Below, one piece after another: positions 8,198 through 34,515 of a stretch of 64,000 nt of DNA (positions within the stretch are counted from its first letter, which is position 1; every line of letters begins with the position of its first letter). The stretch is from the NCBI GenBank assembly GCA_034670405.1, contig JAXDDX010000012.1, forward strand, positions 3,379,001 through 3,443,000, given 5' to 3'. Source of the stretch: Hoplostethus atlanticus. Lineage: Eukaryota; Chordata; Actinopteri; Trachichthyiformes; Trachichthyidae. The notes under the pieces are model-generated. The model had not been told where the DNA came from, did not search any database, and was given only the letters and a program-made list of their open reading frames with translations. The position numbers and the translations under genes are program-made.

Positions 8198-9492
8198 GTA
8201 AGCGCAAAGTCCTTGTACTCCTGTAGACTTACCATGCAAAGAAAGAGAGGATGACAGGTAAACGCATGCGTGTGTGTTTTTTGTTGTTGTTGTCCTTCAT
8301 CCTTTATTAGAATGGGACATGGTCATGCAATTTGTAGATGCGCAGGACACCTAAACGTGGTTACAACTTCTGCTCCATGCATCGAGGATGATTTTGGGAA
8401 ACTGTTAGGTTAAAAATGATGCTTTGGTTTTGATCATAAGCTTGCTAGCAAAGCCCTTTTCAGAAACAAGCACCCAACTGTGCTCAGATCACCCATGACA
8501 GATCCTTGGCTCCAGCTGACTACTGACCCAAATTCACTATCAGCTACTCGTAAAAGTGCCTTAAAGGGGGTAAAAGTACCTTCAATTGTAAACAAAGGAG
8601 ACTTATTGCCAGATATAGACTAATTATTTTGGTTTGTCAACAGCAGTAGGATAGTTGTAGGGAATTACAAACATTTCCTGTGGTACTTGGAAATGTACTT
8701 GTGGTATTCCTTAGGTGCCTGATTTAGGTGTCACCGGACAGCCGAATTCAATGATGCACAGTTCCACATGCCTTATGGAAGGCAGTTCTGTTACTACAGA
8801 ACGTGAGTGTCCTGTTATATCTAAATCAAGTACTATGGGATTTTTTTTGTAAGGGTATGGATCAGTGAGTGAGTGAGCAGCGATACAAGGATAAGAGATA
8901 TGGGTAACCCTCCATGCCTTTCCCACAGTCATACCTGTGTTTTGATCAATAGAAATGTGCCGAAGAGGGGTGGTGCATTAGCAGCTTGTCAAGGGCATAC
9001 TATGTATCCATTAGATGATGTGGAGGAGGAGGGGGGGAGAGGAGGAGAAGGAGAAGAAGGAGGAGGGTTGGGCCACTGTTAGGCATGCTCTCACATTGTG
9101 GGAATGTGTTAAGCCTATTGCATCTCAACATTTGGGCAGGTGGCAAGTGGAATGAGGCACAGGCCTACAGAAGGAGAGAGAGCGTTAGTACCACTGCATG
9201 CTTAGGTCTACATCACACTAAACCATGTGCCGCTTGGTCTCTGTTGCTTCCACTTCACACGTTGTGATACTGTTCTGGTCAGCACGATGGCAGTGTCCAA
9301 GTCGTATCAAACATGTTTGGTAGACGGTGAACACTTTATTCCAAGATTTGTCCTTGAGGGATGGGCGGGTGCCTGGGTGACCAGGTCAACCCCTCATTTT
9401 ATTGCGGAAATGTATTAGTAACGGTGTGTAACAAGGAGAATACCATCCTCTCTAATACCCCTCAAACTGCCCTCTGGGTATATAGCTTAGAC
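8198..9492. other. Start of candidate intron 1
   Basis: The stretch begins at the donor GTAAGC. A perfect ACGCATGCGT palindrome at 8262-8271 resembles the NRF1 site core (GCATGC) and lies just inside the intron. A purine-rich block occurs at 9021-9072. No exon is seen. Confidence 0.45.
9021..9072 (+). repeat. Polypurine (GGA)-rich tract
   Basis: About 50 bp is almost only G and A, with GGAGG and GAAG units and a run of seven G. It is a candidate triplex or quadruplex region. Confidence 0.75.
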
Positions 9493-9685
9493 CAGTGGTT
9501 CCCAATCCAGTCCTCAAGTACCCCCTGTCCTACAGGTTTTAGCTCCAGCTCTACTCAGGCACACCTGAACCAATTAGAGGCTTCACGTTTTCATGATACC
9601 TTCATTGGTTCAGGTGTACCTGCGTAGAGCTGGAGCTAAACCCTGCAGGACAAGGGGTACTTGAGGACTGGATTGGGAACCACTG
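9493..9685. mobile_element. hAT-type MITE with 8-bp target duplication
   Basis: The left end CAGTGGTTCCCAATCC and right end GGATTGGGAACCACTG are perfect inverted copies. The flanks are GCTTAGAC on both sides (9485-9492 and 9686-9693), a perfect 8-bp duplication. The CAGTGGTT-type end and 8-bp duplication are hallmarks of the hAT superfamily. The 193-bp element is foldback-like over most of its length: arms such as CTCAAGTACCCC and GGGGTACTTGAG pair. It has no coding capacity and so would depend on a transposase elsewhere. Confidence 0.93.
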
Positions 9686-9922
9686 GCTTAGACGTATGGG
9701 ATGAGATGAGATGACCACTGTTCAGTCTGTTTCAACCACCATGTAATCCACTTTTCCAGTGCTTTAAGCGATGACAGTACAAGTGCTTTCCTTGCCAATG
9801 AGCCACACATTTTTAAGAGTTTCAATAGATTTTTTTATTTATTGTTGAAGCACTAAGCATCATCATCAAAGACCTATCACTGTGGGAACTGTCTTCATCG
9901 ACTAATTCTCTCTTTCTCTCAT

Positions 9923-20830: not shown

Positions 20831-21077
20831 GGAACACACAAACATTTCTGTTTTGCATTCAGACTGGTCTGCAGTCATACTGTGATGAAAATTGAATTTC
20901 CATACTCTCATGGTTAGTCTACGGTGGCCCTAAGGTGCACAACACAACAACAACATAATGACATTAACCCAAAACACAACAGCATTAACAGAAACGAAAC
21001 ACTTCTGAAAACGCTGCATTTGAAAAAACAAACAAACATGTACAACATGCCAAAACGCAGCATTTCCAGTCATGCAC

Positions 21078-21338
21078 AACGGAAGTGCTCCGGGTCACTA
21101 GGGGCAGTGCCACGTGGAATTAGTTTGGTTTCAGACCAAAACGTAACCAAAACGTTACAGATACAATTAATTATAACATCAAATGCATTAAAGCAATCTT
21201 ACATTGAGGAGTTTCCGTTGGTTCAGATGATTAAATATCTAATTAGCTAAGGGATTTAAACCTGGCGAATGTCTGAATGAGCGAGAACGGGATCACAACC
21301 ACGTTGCACTGCCCCTAGTGGTCCGGAGCACTTCCGTT
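21078..21338. mobile_element. Inner inverted-repeat element nested in the foldback
   Basis: The left arm AACGGAAGTGCTCCGG and right arm CCGGAGCACTTCCGTT are inverted copies. The match continues imperfectly through CACTAGGGGCAGTGC and GCACTGCCCCTAGTG for about 38 bp. It is about 261 bp long. I see no clean target duplication, so it may be a nested MITE or the natural core of the larger foldback. Confidence 0.6.
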
Positions 21339-21357
21339 AACTAACTTGAAATGCTAC

Positions 21358-21926
21358 TGTGGCAGGGTGCCACATAACCGGGGTCCTTGACAGACAGAGA
21401 CATAGGCAGGGGAGAGTTAATGGGCCAGCAGGGCCGTTTTATTGTCCTACAATACCGCACACAATACCAACGGCCCGGGTCTTGACGGCAGCGCGCCGTC
21501 GGCGCCGTCTCCCTCCGCCGGCGCCCTCCTTCGGTCCCGGTGGGCCAGCCGCGGAGCCCCAAGGCTGCCCCAGCCTGCCAGGCTTCCAGGGGCGTCCTGC
21601 CCCAACCCCGACTGGTCAGCCCTTGCAGGTGGCTCCCGACTGCGTCCTCCGTGGACCTCCGCCGGACGCCGCGGCAGGAGACGGCCCGCACCCGCTCCGT
21701 CGTTCCCGCTGGCGCTGGCCCCCGTCTCTCCGCATCCACGCGCCAGCCTCTCACACTGGCGCGTCCCTCCCCACTCACACATTCACATACAGGTTAAAAA
21801 GGCCCCAGCTGCAATCAGTCCCAACTGGCTGCAGCTGGAACCGGATCCAGGAAAGAAGCAGTCCACTAACTCACCTCTCTCCTGGATCCAATTAAGCCTC
21901 CCCCACCCTCCCTCCAGTCCGCCACA
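21358..21926 (-). repeat. LTR (3' LTR in element orientation)
   Basis: This 569-bp copy is GC-rich and ends TGTGGC...GCCACA. The outer plus-strand end TGTGGCAGGGTGCCACA is itself a small hairpin. I count about two differences from the partner LTR: one base substitution in ACATTCACATACAGG and one extra C in the C run near its end. Confidence 0.93.
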
Positions 21927-22180
21927 TACCCCCACCGCCAAACTGAGGCTGGGGAGCCGTCCGGCCGAAGCCAACTCCCCCCCCCTCCCTCCCTCCCTCC
22001 CCCCCATTTGAGAGCGAAGAAGAAGGCGATGAAGGGTCCCGCCCGGAACGGCTCGGAGTCGGTGGGGCCAGGTGATGCTGCGAGGTGGTGAGGGAGGCGC
22101 CTTGCCATCACCGGCCGTCCCCTGGCAGCTGGTGTCGCCACGACGGCACGGCGATGGCGATGCTCTCCCGTCTCTGCCTG

Positions 22181-22202
22181 TCGATTCCCGGTCAGGGAAC
22201 CA
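22181..22202 (-). other. tRNA-Glu-type primer-binding site
   Basis: The plus strand reads TCGATTCCCGGTCAGGGAAC plus CA, which equals the T-arm and acceptor end of eukaryotic tRNA-Glu with CCA. A 2-bp spacer separates it from the LTR at 22205. This fixes the orientation of the element as minus. Confidence 0.85.
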
Positions 22203-22204
22203 AA

Positions 22205-22774
22205 TGTGGCAGGGTGCCACATAACCGGGGTCCTTGACAGACAGAGACATAGGCAGGGGAGAGTTAATGGGCCAGCAGGGCCGTTTTATTGTCCTACAAT
22301 ACCGCACACAATACCAACGGCCCGGGTCTTGACGGCAGCGCGCCGTCGGCGCCGTCTCCCTCCGCCGGCGCCCTCCTTCGGTCCCGGTGGGCCAGCCGCG
22401 GAGCCCCAAGGCTGCCCCAGCCTGCCAGGCTTCCAGGGGCGTCCTGCCCCAACCCCGACTGGTCAGCCCTTGCAGGTGGCTCCCGACTGCGTCCTCCGTG
22501 GACCTCCGCCGGACGCCGCGGCAGGAGACGGCCCGCACCCGCTCCGTCGTTCCCGCTGGCGCTGGCCCCCGTCTCTCCGCATCCACGCGCCAGCCTCTCA
22601 CACTGGCGCGTCCCTCCCCACTCACACATTCACACACAGGTTAAAAAGGCCCCAGCTGCAATCAGTCCCAACTGGCTGCAGCTGGAACCGGATCCAGGAA
22701 AGAAGCAGTCCACTAACTCACCTCTCTCCTGGATCCAATTAAGCCTCCCCCCACCCTCCCTCCAGTCCGCCACA
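22205..22774 (-). repeat. LTR (5' LTR in element orientation)
   Basis: This is the 570-bp partner of 21358-21926. It differs by about one substitution and one indel. It is followed by the right target duplication GCTAC. Confidence 0.93.
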
Positions 22775-23488
22775 GCTACGTTTTGGCAAATGTTTCCGTT
22801 AATGCTGTTGTGTTGTCATGTAATGTCGCAGTGTTGTACATGTTTGATTGTTTTTTCAAATGCATTGTTTTCAGAAATGTTTAGTTTCTGTTAATGCTGT
22901 TGTGTTGTGGGTTAATGTTATCATGCTGTCAGCTTTTGTTGCTTCGCTAATGCCGTTGTGTTGTGCACCTTAGGGCCACCGTAGTAGTCAGGCAGTTGTT
23001 ACTCCTTCTCCCATTATGGTACATTCACGCAGCACGATGCCAGAGCGAGAAGGGGTCTGCACCAGCTTCTCCAGGGGAGGCCCCCCACCCTCAGCCCCAA
23101 GCCCTTTCTAGGCTGACTGGTGGGGGAACTGGTGGGGGTCTCATGCACTACTTTGTGAAGCACAGGTCAGTGGGCTATCAGTGAGAGCCCAGGGTGCCAA
23201 CAAGGCCACCCAGTTGCAGAGAAACCATGGCAACTATTAGCCAGGTTGGTGTGGTTGCTATGGCAGCATATAGATCACTGGTCCACTGCTGGGATGGAGT
23301 GATATAATGGGCTGGTAGAGGGAGGGAATTAGGCTTTGCAGAACATGCCTCAAAGTACAACCAGAACAAGTATCAATTCTATTTGATCAATAATAGACTG
23401 AAATGGCAATGATGGATATTGGAGTGCAGGAGTGGTGAAGTGTAGATTAGAAGATACATACTTTCCTTACCACATTTACAAAAAACTA

Positions 23489-33333: not shown

Positions 33334-33745
33334 CAGGGGCGATTTTAGGACATGAGGTGTTGGGGGGCTGAGCCCCTCAGAGAAGGGTGATTTTGTTGCC
33401 TGCAGACTTGTGTCGAATTTCTAAAATTAATTAATTACATTTTATTTAACGCGTGCTGCGCATGCACATTGATTTACTGACTTTACTCAAATAGAGTAAA
33501 ACTAGTAGGTACAGCTAGTGACCAGACCTGCAGAGAGCCTTTTAGGAGGTATGGATACAATGGATTCAAGAAGGGGAAGAAATCCTCTCCATGACACTCA
33601 GGTTTCACTGAAACCACTGAGGAGCAGGTACTAAAGTATCCTGGAACAGATTTTAGAAGGATACTAGGTATACAAATATCATAGTAAAACTATAAGAGCC
33701 TATGGTAATATTATAAGAATACCATAGCAGATTAGAAAATACCAT

Positions 33746-33858
33746 TGTGGCGGACTGGGGGGAGGGAGGGTGATAGGTTCGGCTGGACTCAGTGGCTGCG
33801 GCCAATTAAAGCTGATTGCAGCCGAACCTACCACCCTCCCTCCCCCCAGTCCGCCACA
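33746..33858. mobile_element. 113-bp near-perfect palindromic element related to the LTR element
   Basis: The ends TGTGGCGGACTGG and CCAGTCCGCCACA are inverted copies, and about 40 bp of each arm pairs (one mismatch seen, GTGATAGG against GTGGTAGG). ACCAT flanks both sides (33741-33745 and 33859-33863), a perfect 5-bp duplication. The terminal TGTGGCGGACTGG is identical to the start of the LTR at 21358-22774 read on the minus strand. The middle also resembles that LTR (GCTGATTGCAGC against ACTGATTGCAGC). It could be a solo miniature LTR or a MITE that shares ends with the LTR family. Confidence 0.85.
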
Positions 33859-34515
33859 ACCATCAAGTAGGATTAGGTCACTATAAACTCACTGCCGAGG
33901 AGCACAGACGTTCCTCTAGGAATGTTCTAGGAATATTATAATGGTTTTTCCTCCTGAATTACTACAAAAATGCTACAAATTTGCTTTAAGTTCAACAATA
34001 TTTTCCTCATATTATAGTGCATAAAGCCTTTTAGGAGGTATGGATACACTGTATTCAAGAAAGGGACAATAACTCTGATCAATTTAGCCCAGAGAAACAG
34101 ACTGGTATACCATGCAGAGGACCTGGTTCCTTTCACTGATTTGTTTTAGTGTGTTAGGTTTAAATGAAAGGATCCATTGCCTTTGCGTGGATATCGTATC
34201 CAGCCAAAGGTAGAGTTGTAACAGTAGTTCTGTTCTATTGGGGGTACATCTTAGAGCTGTTGTAGTCTCATCATGGTGAAATAGTACTACCTCAAAGATT
34301 CCTCTCTCATCTGTCTTGCCTGATCACTTTCTTACCTGGCTGCTGTTCATTTTCTGTGGTTCTGCTGCTTTTCATCAAGTACTTTCTTCTATCCATCTAT
34401 GGATAAATAAATGGTTACATTACAAGCTGACATTTCAGTCATTTTTGCTAACATTATACCTAGCAAGTTACAAAGCTAGTGAGTGTTGTAGCTAGCTAGC
34501 CGATCTGGTGGCGGC

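Follow-up and report, generated by a model that had tools for sequence, protein, structure and literature searches.

A palindromic U3-U3 insertion of Hoplostethus atlanticus as a probable by-product of plus-strand mispriming in a miniature LTR retrotransposon family

The 113-bp palindrome at positions 33746-33858 of the window (the whole stretch of 64,000 nucleotides of Hoplostethus atlanticus DNA that was analysed) is very probably an aberrant cDNA that a non-autonomous (TRIM-like) LTR retrotransposon produced through mispriming of plus-strand DNA and that was then integrated. It is one of a set of insertions in this genome that carry the U3 start of the LTR, facing outward, at both outer ends. 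As read from their sequences, these insertions combine U3-U3 ends with 5-bp target site duplications and junctions at inverted repeats, and some of them display tails copied from a tRNA, palindromes placed after the polypurine tract, or arms of chimeric origin.

Such a product could arise in a few steps. Plus-strand DNA begins at the polypurine tract, so that its 5' end would be the U3 terminus. Its 3' end would stall inside the LTR or, presumably after second-strand transfer had failed, remain as strong-stop DNA following partial copying of the primer tRNA. This 3' end would then pair, over a short complementary segment, with a second plus strand, or fold back on itself, and reverse transcriptase would extend it until run-off at the U3 terminus of the template. 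The product, comparable to a primer dimer, would have U3 at both ends, and the integrase would take these two ends instead of one U3 and one U5, inserting the molecule with the usual 5-bp duplication. In the window copy, synthesis may have ended near LTR position 79 (...CAGCCG, 74-79), with annealing to CGGCTG at 35-40.

The window palindrome and its relation to the LTR family

The sequence-only reading of this DNA had described a 113-bp palindrome with its own 5-bp duplication, and direct reading confirms ACCAT on both sides (Table 1). The arms pair perfectly over 27 nt and, after a mismatch at nt 28, again up to nt 40. Folded as single-stranded DNA, the palindrome reaches -60 kcal/mol, whereas 200 shuffles average -19.53 kcal/mol (sd 2.78), giving a z of -14.56. 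No other site of the window combines 26-nt arms, at most one mismatch, a loop of 20-99 nt and a sequence that is not simple, but these hairpin criteria miss the arms 9492-9574/9604-9686, and the palindrome is hence not the sole strong hairpin present. This second hairpin (9492-9686), which begins ccagtggttcccaatcc and is composed of two 83-nt arms with 94% complementarity around a 29-nt loop, has the appearance of a separate MITE-like repeat. Near-identical stretches (gccttttaggaggtatggataca...), noticed by eye at 33537-33578 and 34026-34067, flank the palindrome, which may therefore sit in an older repeat.

The motif TGTGGCGGACTGG has exactly four occurrences in the window: one at each end of the palindrome and one at the start of each LTR of the minus-strand element 21358-22774. 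With up to 2 mismatches allowed, 7 matches are found for 1.18 expected, a number reached by none of 100 shuffles. The earlier claim that the palindrome ends equal the LTR start is thus borne out, with the precision that the palindrome derives from LTR subfamily G, not A. It is composed of G positions 1-79 joined to reversed positions 48-1, and its first 79 bases are equal at 75 of 79 positions to a G-type solo LTR found elsewhere in the genome (L036). The subfamily G LTR (617 bp; reference for mapping, L036:501-1117) is related to, and distinct from, the 570-bp A-type LTR of the window, which served as the reference for A. L036 had also been considered as a 5-kb element; this was rejected, as it is a solo LTR within a duplicated stretch. 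The window palindrome contains no tRNA copy, its strand having ended inside the LTR.

Table 1. Features of the window related to the palindrome and to the miniature LTR element.
Feature	Position	Strand	Basis
U3-U3 palindromic insertion, 113 bp	33746..33858	+	direct reading, folding, genome matches
Left arm = subfamily G LTR positions 1-79	33746..33824	+	79/48 junction; 75/79 identical to L036 LTR
Right arm = subfamily G LTR positions 1-48, reversed	33811..33858	-	44/48 identical; 14-nt overlap with left arm
Target site duplication ACCAT, left	33741..33745	.	direct reading
Target site duplication ACCAT, right	33859..33863	.	direct reading
Miniature (TRIM-like) LTR element, subfamily A	21358..22774	-	sequence comparison
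5' LTR of the miniature element, 570 bp	22205..22774	-	sequence comparison
3' LTR of the miniature element, 569 bp	21358..21926	-	sequence comparison
Primer binding site, 22 nt = complement of the genome's tRNA-Glu + CCA	22181..22202	-	tRNA comparison
Polypurine tract end (GGCGGTGGGGGTA), directly before the 3' LTR	21927..21939	-	sequence comparison
Target site duplication GCTAC, left	21353..21357	.	direct reading
Target site duplication GCTAC, right	22775..22779	.	direct reading

A solo LTR is a complete LTR that begins with U3 and finishes with U5, and the palindrome differs from it by having U3 at both ends. The two direct terminal repeats and short internal region that define a TRIM are found in the element 21358-22774, and not in the palindrome. 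This element is itself enclosed by arms of 98 nt, 91% complementary, at 20950-21047 and 22832-22929, and a stretch with its own imperfect inverted ends (about 21078-21338) lies inside these arms (20950-22929), forming nested inverted-repeat elements. The window is also dense in dinucleotide repeats.

U3-U3 insertions across the genome

In the 633-Mb genome searched, scoring of 40 of 558 candidates placed matches to the 113-bp unit over its whole, or nearly whole, length at 10 or more places (window included), and matches to positions 1-79 only at a further 31. Many of the latter are ordinary LTR starts, and others are U3-U3 copies of different length. Many intermediate forms exist genome-wide; their absence, making the shared LTR start a chance match, had been named by the sequence-only reading as a possible refutation.

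A catalogue of 33 insertions with U3 starts facing outward at both outer ends was assembled from the best 113-bp matches, opposite-strand tag pairs, tRNA read-through matches and loci met between these, and is not a random set. An exact 5-bp duplication encloses 28 of the 33; the script gave 27, and the 28th is L047, one arm of which measures only about 10 nt, with its right end placed at 1306 and GCCAT on both sides. In the remaining copies, the duplication matches at 4 of 5 bases (L012, L113, L114) or 3 of 5 (L061), and L015 has a changed end, with a 4-bp repeat if this end is placed at 999. Duplications of another size had been named as a possible refutation; the 5-bp size stands for the 28 exact copies, and the exceptions are the three copies matching at 4 of 5 bases, L061 and the 4-bp repeat of L015. 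Ordinary copies of the family (L021, L023, L025, L028, L036-L038) also carry 5-bp duplications, and the constant short duplication, equal to theirs, identifies the U3-U3 copies as products of an LTR-retrotransposon integrase. The earlier proposal of a hairpin element built from two inverted LTR starts and inserted by the same kind of integrase is thereby supported, and the origin by plus-strand priming is an addition to it.

Insertion lengths lie between 82 and 1565 bp, except for one copy of 7120 bp with a tandem-array interior (L039, which was considered as a 7-kb coding element and rejected on account of this tandem-repeat interior). The shorter palindromes measure 82, 97, 111, 113, 121, 123 bp and longer. 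Three architectures are encountered. In the first, U3(1..x) is joined to reversed U3(y..1); in the second, a complete LTR followed by the primer site or a tRNA copy is joined to reversed U3. In the third (L017, L033), a U3 palindrome takes the place of the 3' LTR, in the order LTR, internal region, polypurine tract, palindrome, and one duplication encloses the whole structure; in L033, for example, everything from the full 5' LTR through the internal part to the palindrome lies within a single GTGTG duplication. Since L027 contains a run of N, an assembly error at the palindrome is possible for this copy. At a further locus (L089, C8:330366-331046), left out of the U3-U3 counts, a U3 is followed by a short fold-back that ends before U3 and is joined to the target at a shared GGATCAT; it is possibly an unfinished product, of which the snap-back arm stopped before U3, joined by end joining.

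This variety bears on the other option of the sequence-only reading, a very short palindromic solo LTR left by an element with 113-bp LTRs. The TGT...ACA ends and the 5-bp duplication are indeed those of the genome's solo LTRs, but palindrome lengths and junctions vary, and each arm is the 5' part of an LTR of 570-617 bp (ordinary LTRs of this family measuring about 570-620 bp), the solo forms of which have a different U5 end. The check that had been proposed, pairs of the 113-bp unit around a primer site against lone copies, yielded lone copies with 5-bp duplications and no such pair among the loci read. The solo LTR explanation therefore retains next to no probability.

The frequency of U3-U3 copies was estimated with a 21-base U3 tag, which occurs 762 times in the genome (377 + 385), its reversed control being found 0 times. 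The first 100 of these 762 tags, a sample not chosen by shape, correspond to 81 loci (82 clusters at 2 kb, two L039 tags being merged), all of which were looked at. U3-U3 insertions account for 16 of the 81 (L001, L011, L016, L029-L035, L039, L061, L079, L113-L115), a proportion to be read knowing that a copy with two U3 ends is likelier to retain one intact tag, and that U3-U3 copies may be missed because 41 loci were covered over 681 bp only, 3 of these having been extended. The duplication is an exact 5-bp one in 13 of the 16. Five tagged copies (L058, L068, L074, L087, L112) have a common flank, which points to one LTR insertion multiplied together with a host segment; these five and two L036 duplicates imply fewer independent ordinary insertions among the other 65 loci.

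Within the same 100 tags, adjacent opposite-strand U3 tags less than 2 kb apart form 9 pairs with U3 outward and 0 with U3 inward (p 0.004). Among the first 100 of 164 U5 tags, no opposite-strand pair lies within 2 kb, compared with 7 same-strand pairs, a control that is suggestive rather than exact, the U5 tag being longer than the U3 tag, limited to subfamily G and hence stricter. The outer ends lie at the U3 terminus, which is set by the polypurine tract, and the sampled U5 tags yield no opposite-strand pair, the pattern of a plus-strand origin. For this reason, self-priming of minus-strand strong-stop DNA, which would yield R/U5 ends, was rejected.

Two independent insertions in opposite orientations, or an autointegration product, followed by deletion, could in principle leave similar structures in so abundant a family (762 U3 tags). 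One 5-bp duplication around the whole structure in 28 of 33 copies, the exclusively outward orientation of the close opposite-strand pairs and the tRNA copies found at three junctions all run against this explanation, to which we give hardly any weight.

Junctions, tRNA-Glu read-through and the origin of the arms

The positions at which the arms join are consistent with annealing at short complementary stretches. The arms overlap by at least 8 nt in 11 of the 21 simple copies, compared with 11 of 150 simulated random joins (Fisher p 2e-6, with the caveat that copies sharing a recurrent junction are not independent events). The overlap is shorter than 8 nt in the 10 other simple junctions, L009, L012 and L016, which map poorly at the junction, being counted as such. 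Several joins are recurrent. In subfamily G, 311/485 is shared by L020, L034 and L113, L114 has 311/484 and an overlap of 2 nt, and 48/78-84 is seen in several members of the 113-bp class. In subfamily A, 52/85 is common to L032 and L033, and L031 has 45/45. These joins coincide with, or lie next to, inverted repeats that the LTR already contains, for instance CGTCTCCC (299-306/473-480 in G) and GGATCCAGGA (39-48/76-85 in A).

In the 110-bp class, the junction reads ...GCAGCCG-AACCTACC in the window copy, ...GCAGCCGGGCCT-ACC in L010 and L011, ...GGGCCTT-CC in L009 and L012, and ...GCTGA-GTCC in L013. As these details differ within the class, the junction sequences argue for repeated formation at a hot spot, and not for one copied element. 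Copying of one 113-bp insertion from another may account for some of them.

The nature of the joined strand is indicated by the copies in which the LTR end is followed by tRNA-Glu sequence beyond the primer site. This arrangement occurs at 3 places of the genome (control, 0), each time within a U3-U3 insertion that carries a 5-bp duplication: L069 (CTCAC; the same genomic place as L029), L070 (CAGAT) and L071 (CCTTG). Their tails are identical to the tRNA-Glu complement over 32, 43 and 33 nt, respectively, with the genome's tRNA-Glu gene L140 (anticodon CTC), plus CCA, as the reference; about 5-6 tail bases are common to the LTR at the junction, and at least 27 nt remain tRNA-derived. Ordinary primer sites match this complement for 18-22 nt only (22 nt in the window element; 18 nt in 10, 19 nt in 1 and 22 nt in 8 of 19 other LTR-PBS places, L118-L136). 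The three copies thus contain primer-tRNA sequence that is not encoded by the element, the hallmark of a reverse-transcription product, and its extension past the ordinary 18-22 nt indicates that the joined strand was a reverse-transcription intermediate. The arms of L022, L122, L126, L132 and L136 are instead joined at the primer site or shortly after it. A 39-mer of the L070 tail is present at 5 genome places, including L070 itself; Rfam at gathering score did not call the L070 tail a tRNA, and ARAGORN reported tRNA-Glu in 3 of the other 4 places, L143 being the exception.

According to PMC13191261, synthesis of HIV-1 plus-strand strong-stop DNA ends chiefly at m1A58 of the primer tRNA and less often at 55, 54 and 37; DNA ending at 58, 55 or 54 is an active template, the anticodon-loop product not being active. 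The 18- and 22-nt primer sites of the fish family fit the described stops, and the L070 tail extends to the anticodon loop. Judged by tail lengths against these stops, the joined strand in L069-L071 was plus-strand DNA continued past the usual tRNA stop. The existence of two primer site lengths (18 and 22 nt) also resembles the lentiviral primer over-extension sequence described in the same source (PMC13191261).

These interiors are relevant to a further explanation, according to which the palindromes would be DNA transposons or MITEs, for example, Ginger-like ones with an integrase-type transposase, the terminal inverted repeats of which equal U3 by chance. Ginger transposons use gypsy-like integrases, and both the inverted ends and the constant duplication length would be accounted for. 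Nevertheless, a transposon bounded by terminal inverted repeats leaves unexplained why the interiors mix truncated LTR, primer site, tRNA copy, internal region and polypurine tract; the family's ordinary U3...U5 copies have the same duplication length, and no transposase-coding element with these inverted ends was present among the loci met in passing. We consider a DNA transposon very unlikely.

Plus-strand priming may take place between two molecules or within one, and the arms of 13 long copies were compared in this respect. Both arms are mutually closest in five (L034, L113, L114, L115 and L035, the ranking of the latter being trivial as it is the only A-type copy in the set), and in the 8 others one arm or both resemble a different copy more closely, most clearly in L018 and L070. 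In addition, the arms of L029 come from subfamilies G and A, and in L043 a G-type U3 is linked to a full-length LTR of a different family, F2, within one GATAC duplication. From these relationships, priming between molecules is supported for some copies, and self-priming is possible for others. A strictly intramolecular origin, in which one plus strand folds back into a hairpin that is later opened or copied, would suit the copies with mutually closest arms, but it is improbable given the 8 of 13 discordant long copies. As a sole route, it is refuted by the chimeric copies, L029 and L043; as one of two routes, it is possible. A hairpin has only one free end and would still need opening and conversion into a duplex, whereas plus-plus priming directly gives a two-ended duplex.

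Candidate helper, implications and known systems

The enzymes could be supplied by the family F2, for which at least 8 same-strand pairs, 4.6-4.7 kb apart, were found among 40 scored matches. One F2 copy encodes an integrase upstream of reverse transcriptase and RNase H, with Integrase_H2C2 in L138 (10441500-10442700), and RVT_1 and RNase H in L139 (10442700-10444330); the rve core scores 31.4 bits, slightly below the cut-off of 32.6. This is the domain order of Gmr1, the integrase preceding the reverse transcriptase, according to PMC2582038 and PMC8220671. The polypurine tract and U3 start of F2 align with those of the miniature elements. Its primer site is TGGGGGCTCGTCCGGGAT, which we take to be complementary to tRNA-Pro, unlike the tRNA-Glu site of the miniature family. 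Among 24 exact LTR-PBS places (19 fetched, 5 known loci), none revealed a coding partner primed by tRNA-Glu: 16 continue with the miniature internal region, 7 with reversed LTR or tRNA sequence (L136 for 49 nt only) and 1 (L120) runs elsewhere. The Gmr1-like F2 is a candidate helper.

The U3-U3 copies indicate that the integrase is able to insert DNA with two U3 ends. Abortive reverse-transcription products, known from test tubes, are found here as inherited insertions with integrase signatures (16 of 81 loci), and they preserve plus-strand end points, including tRNA read-through, that are otherwise visible only in short-lived intermediates. Palindromic MITE-like repeats may, in the same way, be retrotransposon by-products. 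Titles and abstract openings contained no earlier description of U3-U3 palindromic insertions, most of the subscription literature being outside this search, and an earlier description is possible.

A broader proposal can be made tentatively, with rather less than even confidence: plus-strand strong-stop DNAs might prime each other as a regular exit for tRNA-over-extended strands that are unable to finish second-strand transfer, and, with an integrase requiring only U3 ends, the family would keep shedding palindromes with inverted ends. If true, this would open a physical path from LTR retrotransposons to elements resembling integrase-driven DNA transposons, and genomes would constitute an archive of primer-tRNA modification.

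Several known systems share part of these features. DIRS elements, MITEs and Ginger DNA transposons have inverted ends as well. DIRS elements, however, are not known to make a target duplication, and 28 of the 33 U3-U3 copies have one of exactly 5 bp. Ordinary copies of the family are similar to TRIMs, with two LTRs, a short non-coding internal region, a primer site, a polypurine tract and a 5-bp duplication, but a TRIM has, by definition, direct terminal repeats, whereas the palindromes have inverted U3 ends and mostly lack an internal region. Gmr1-like Ty3/gypsy elements are approached through F2, with its integrase before the reverse transcriptase and the polypurine tract and U3 start it has in common with the miniature family; F2 codes for proteins and has a different primer site, whereas the miniature family is non-coding.

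Among reverse-transcription intermediates, one parallel is over-extended plus-strand strong-stop DNA, in which the plus strand copies the tRNA beyond the usual stop, as minor products according to PMC13191261; here, the genome contains such strands as insertions, linked to a reversed U3. Self-priming of HIV-1 minus-strand strong-stop DNA also involves unfinished reverse-transcription DNA that misfolds or misanneals and is then extended (PMC4668388). That process concerns the minus strand in vitro (PMC4668388), whereas the U3 ends and tRNA tails of the fish insertions point to the plus strand, and the products were integrated with target duplications.
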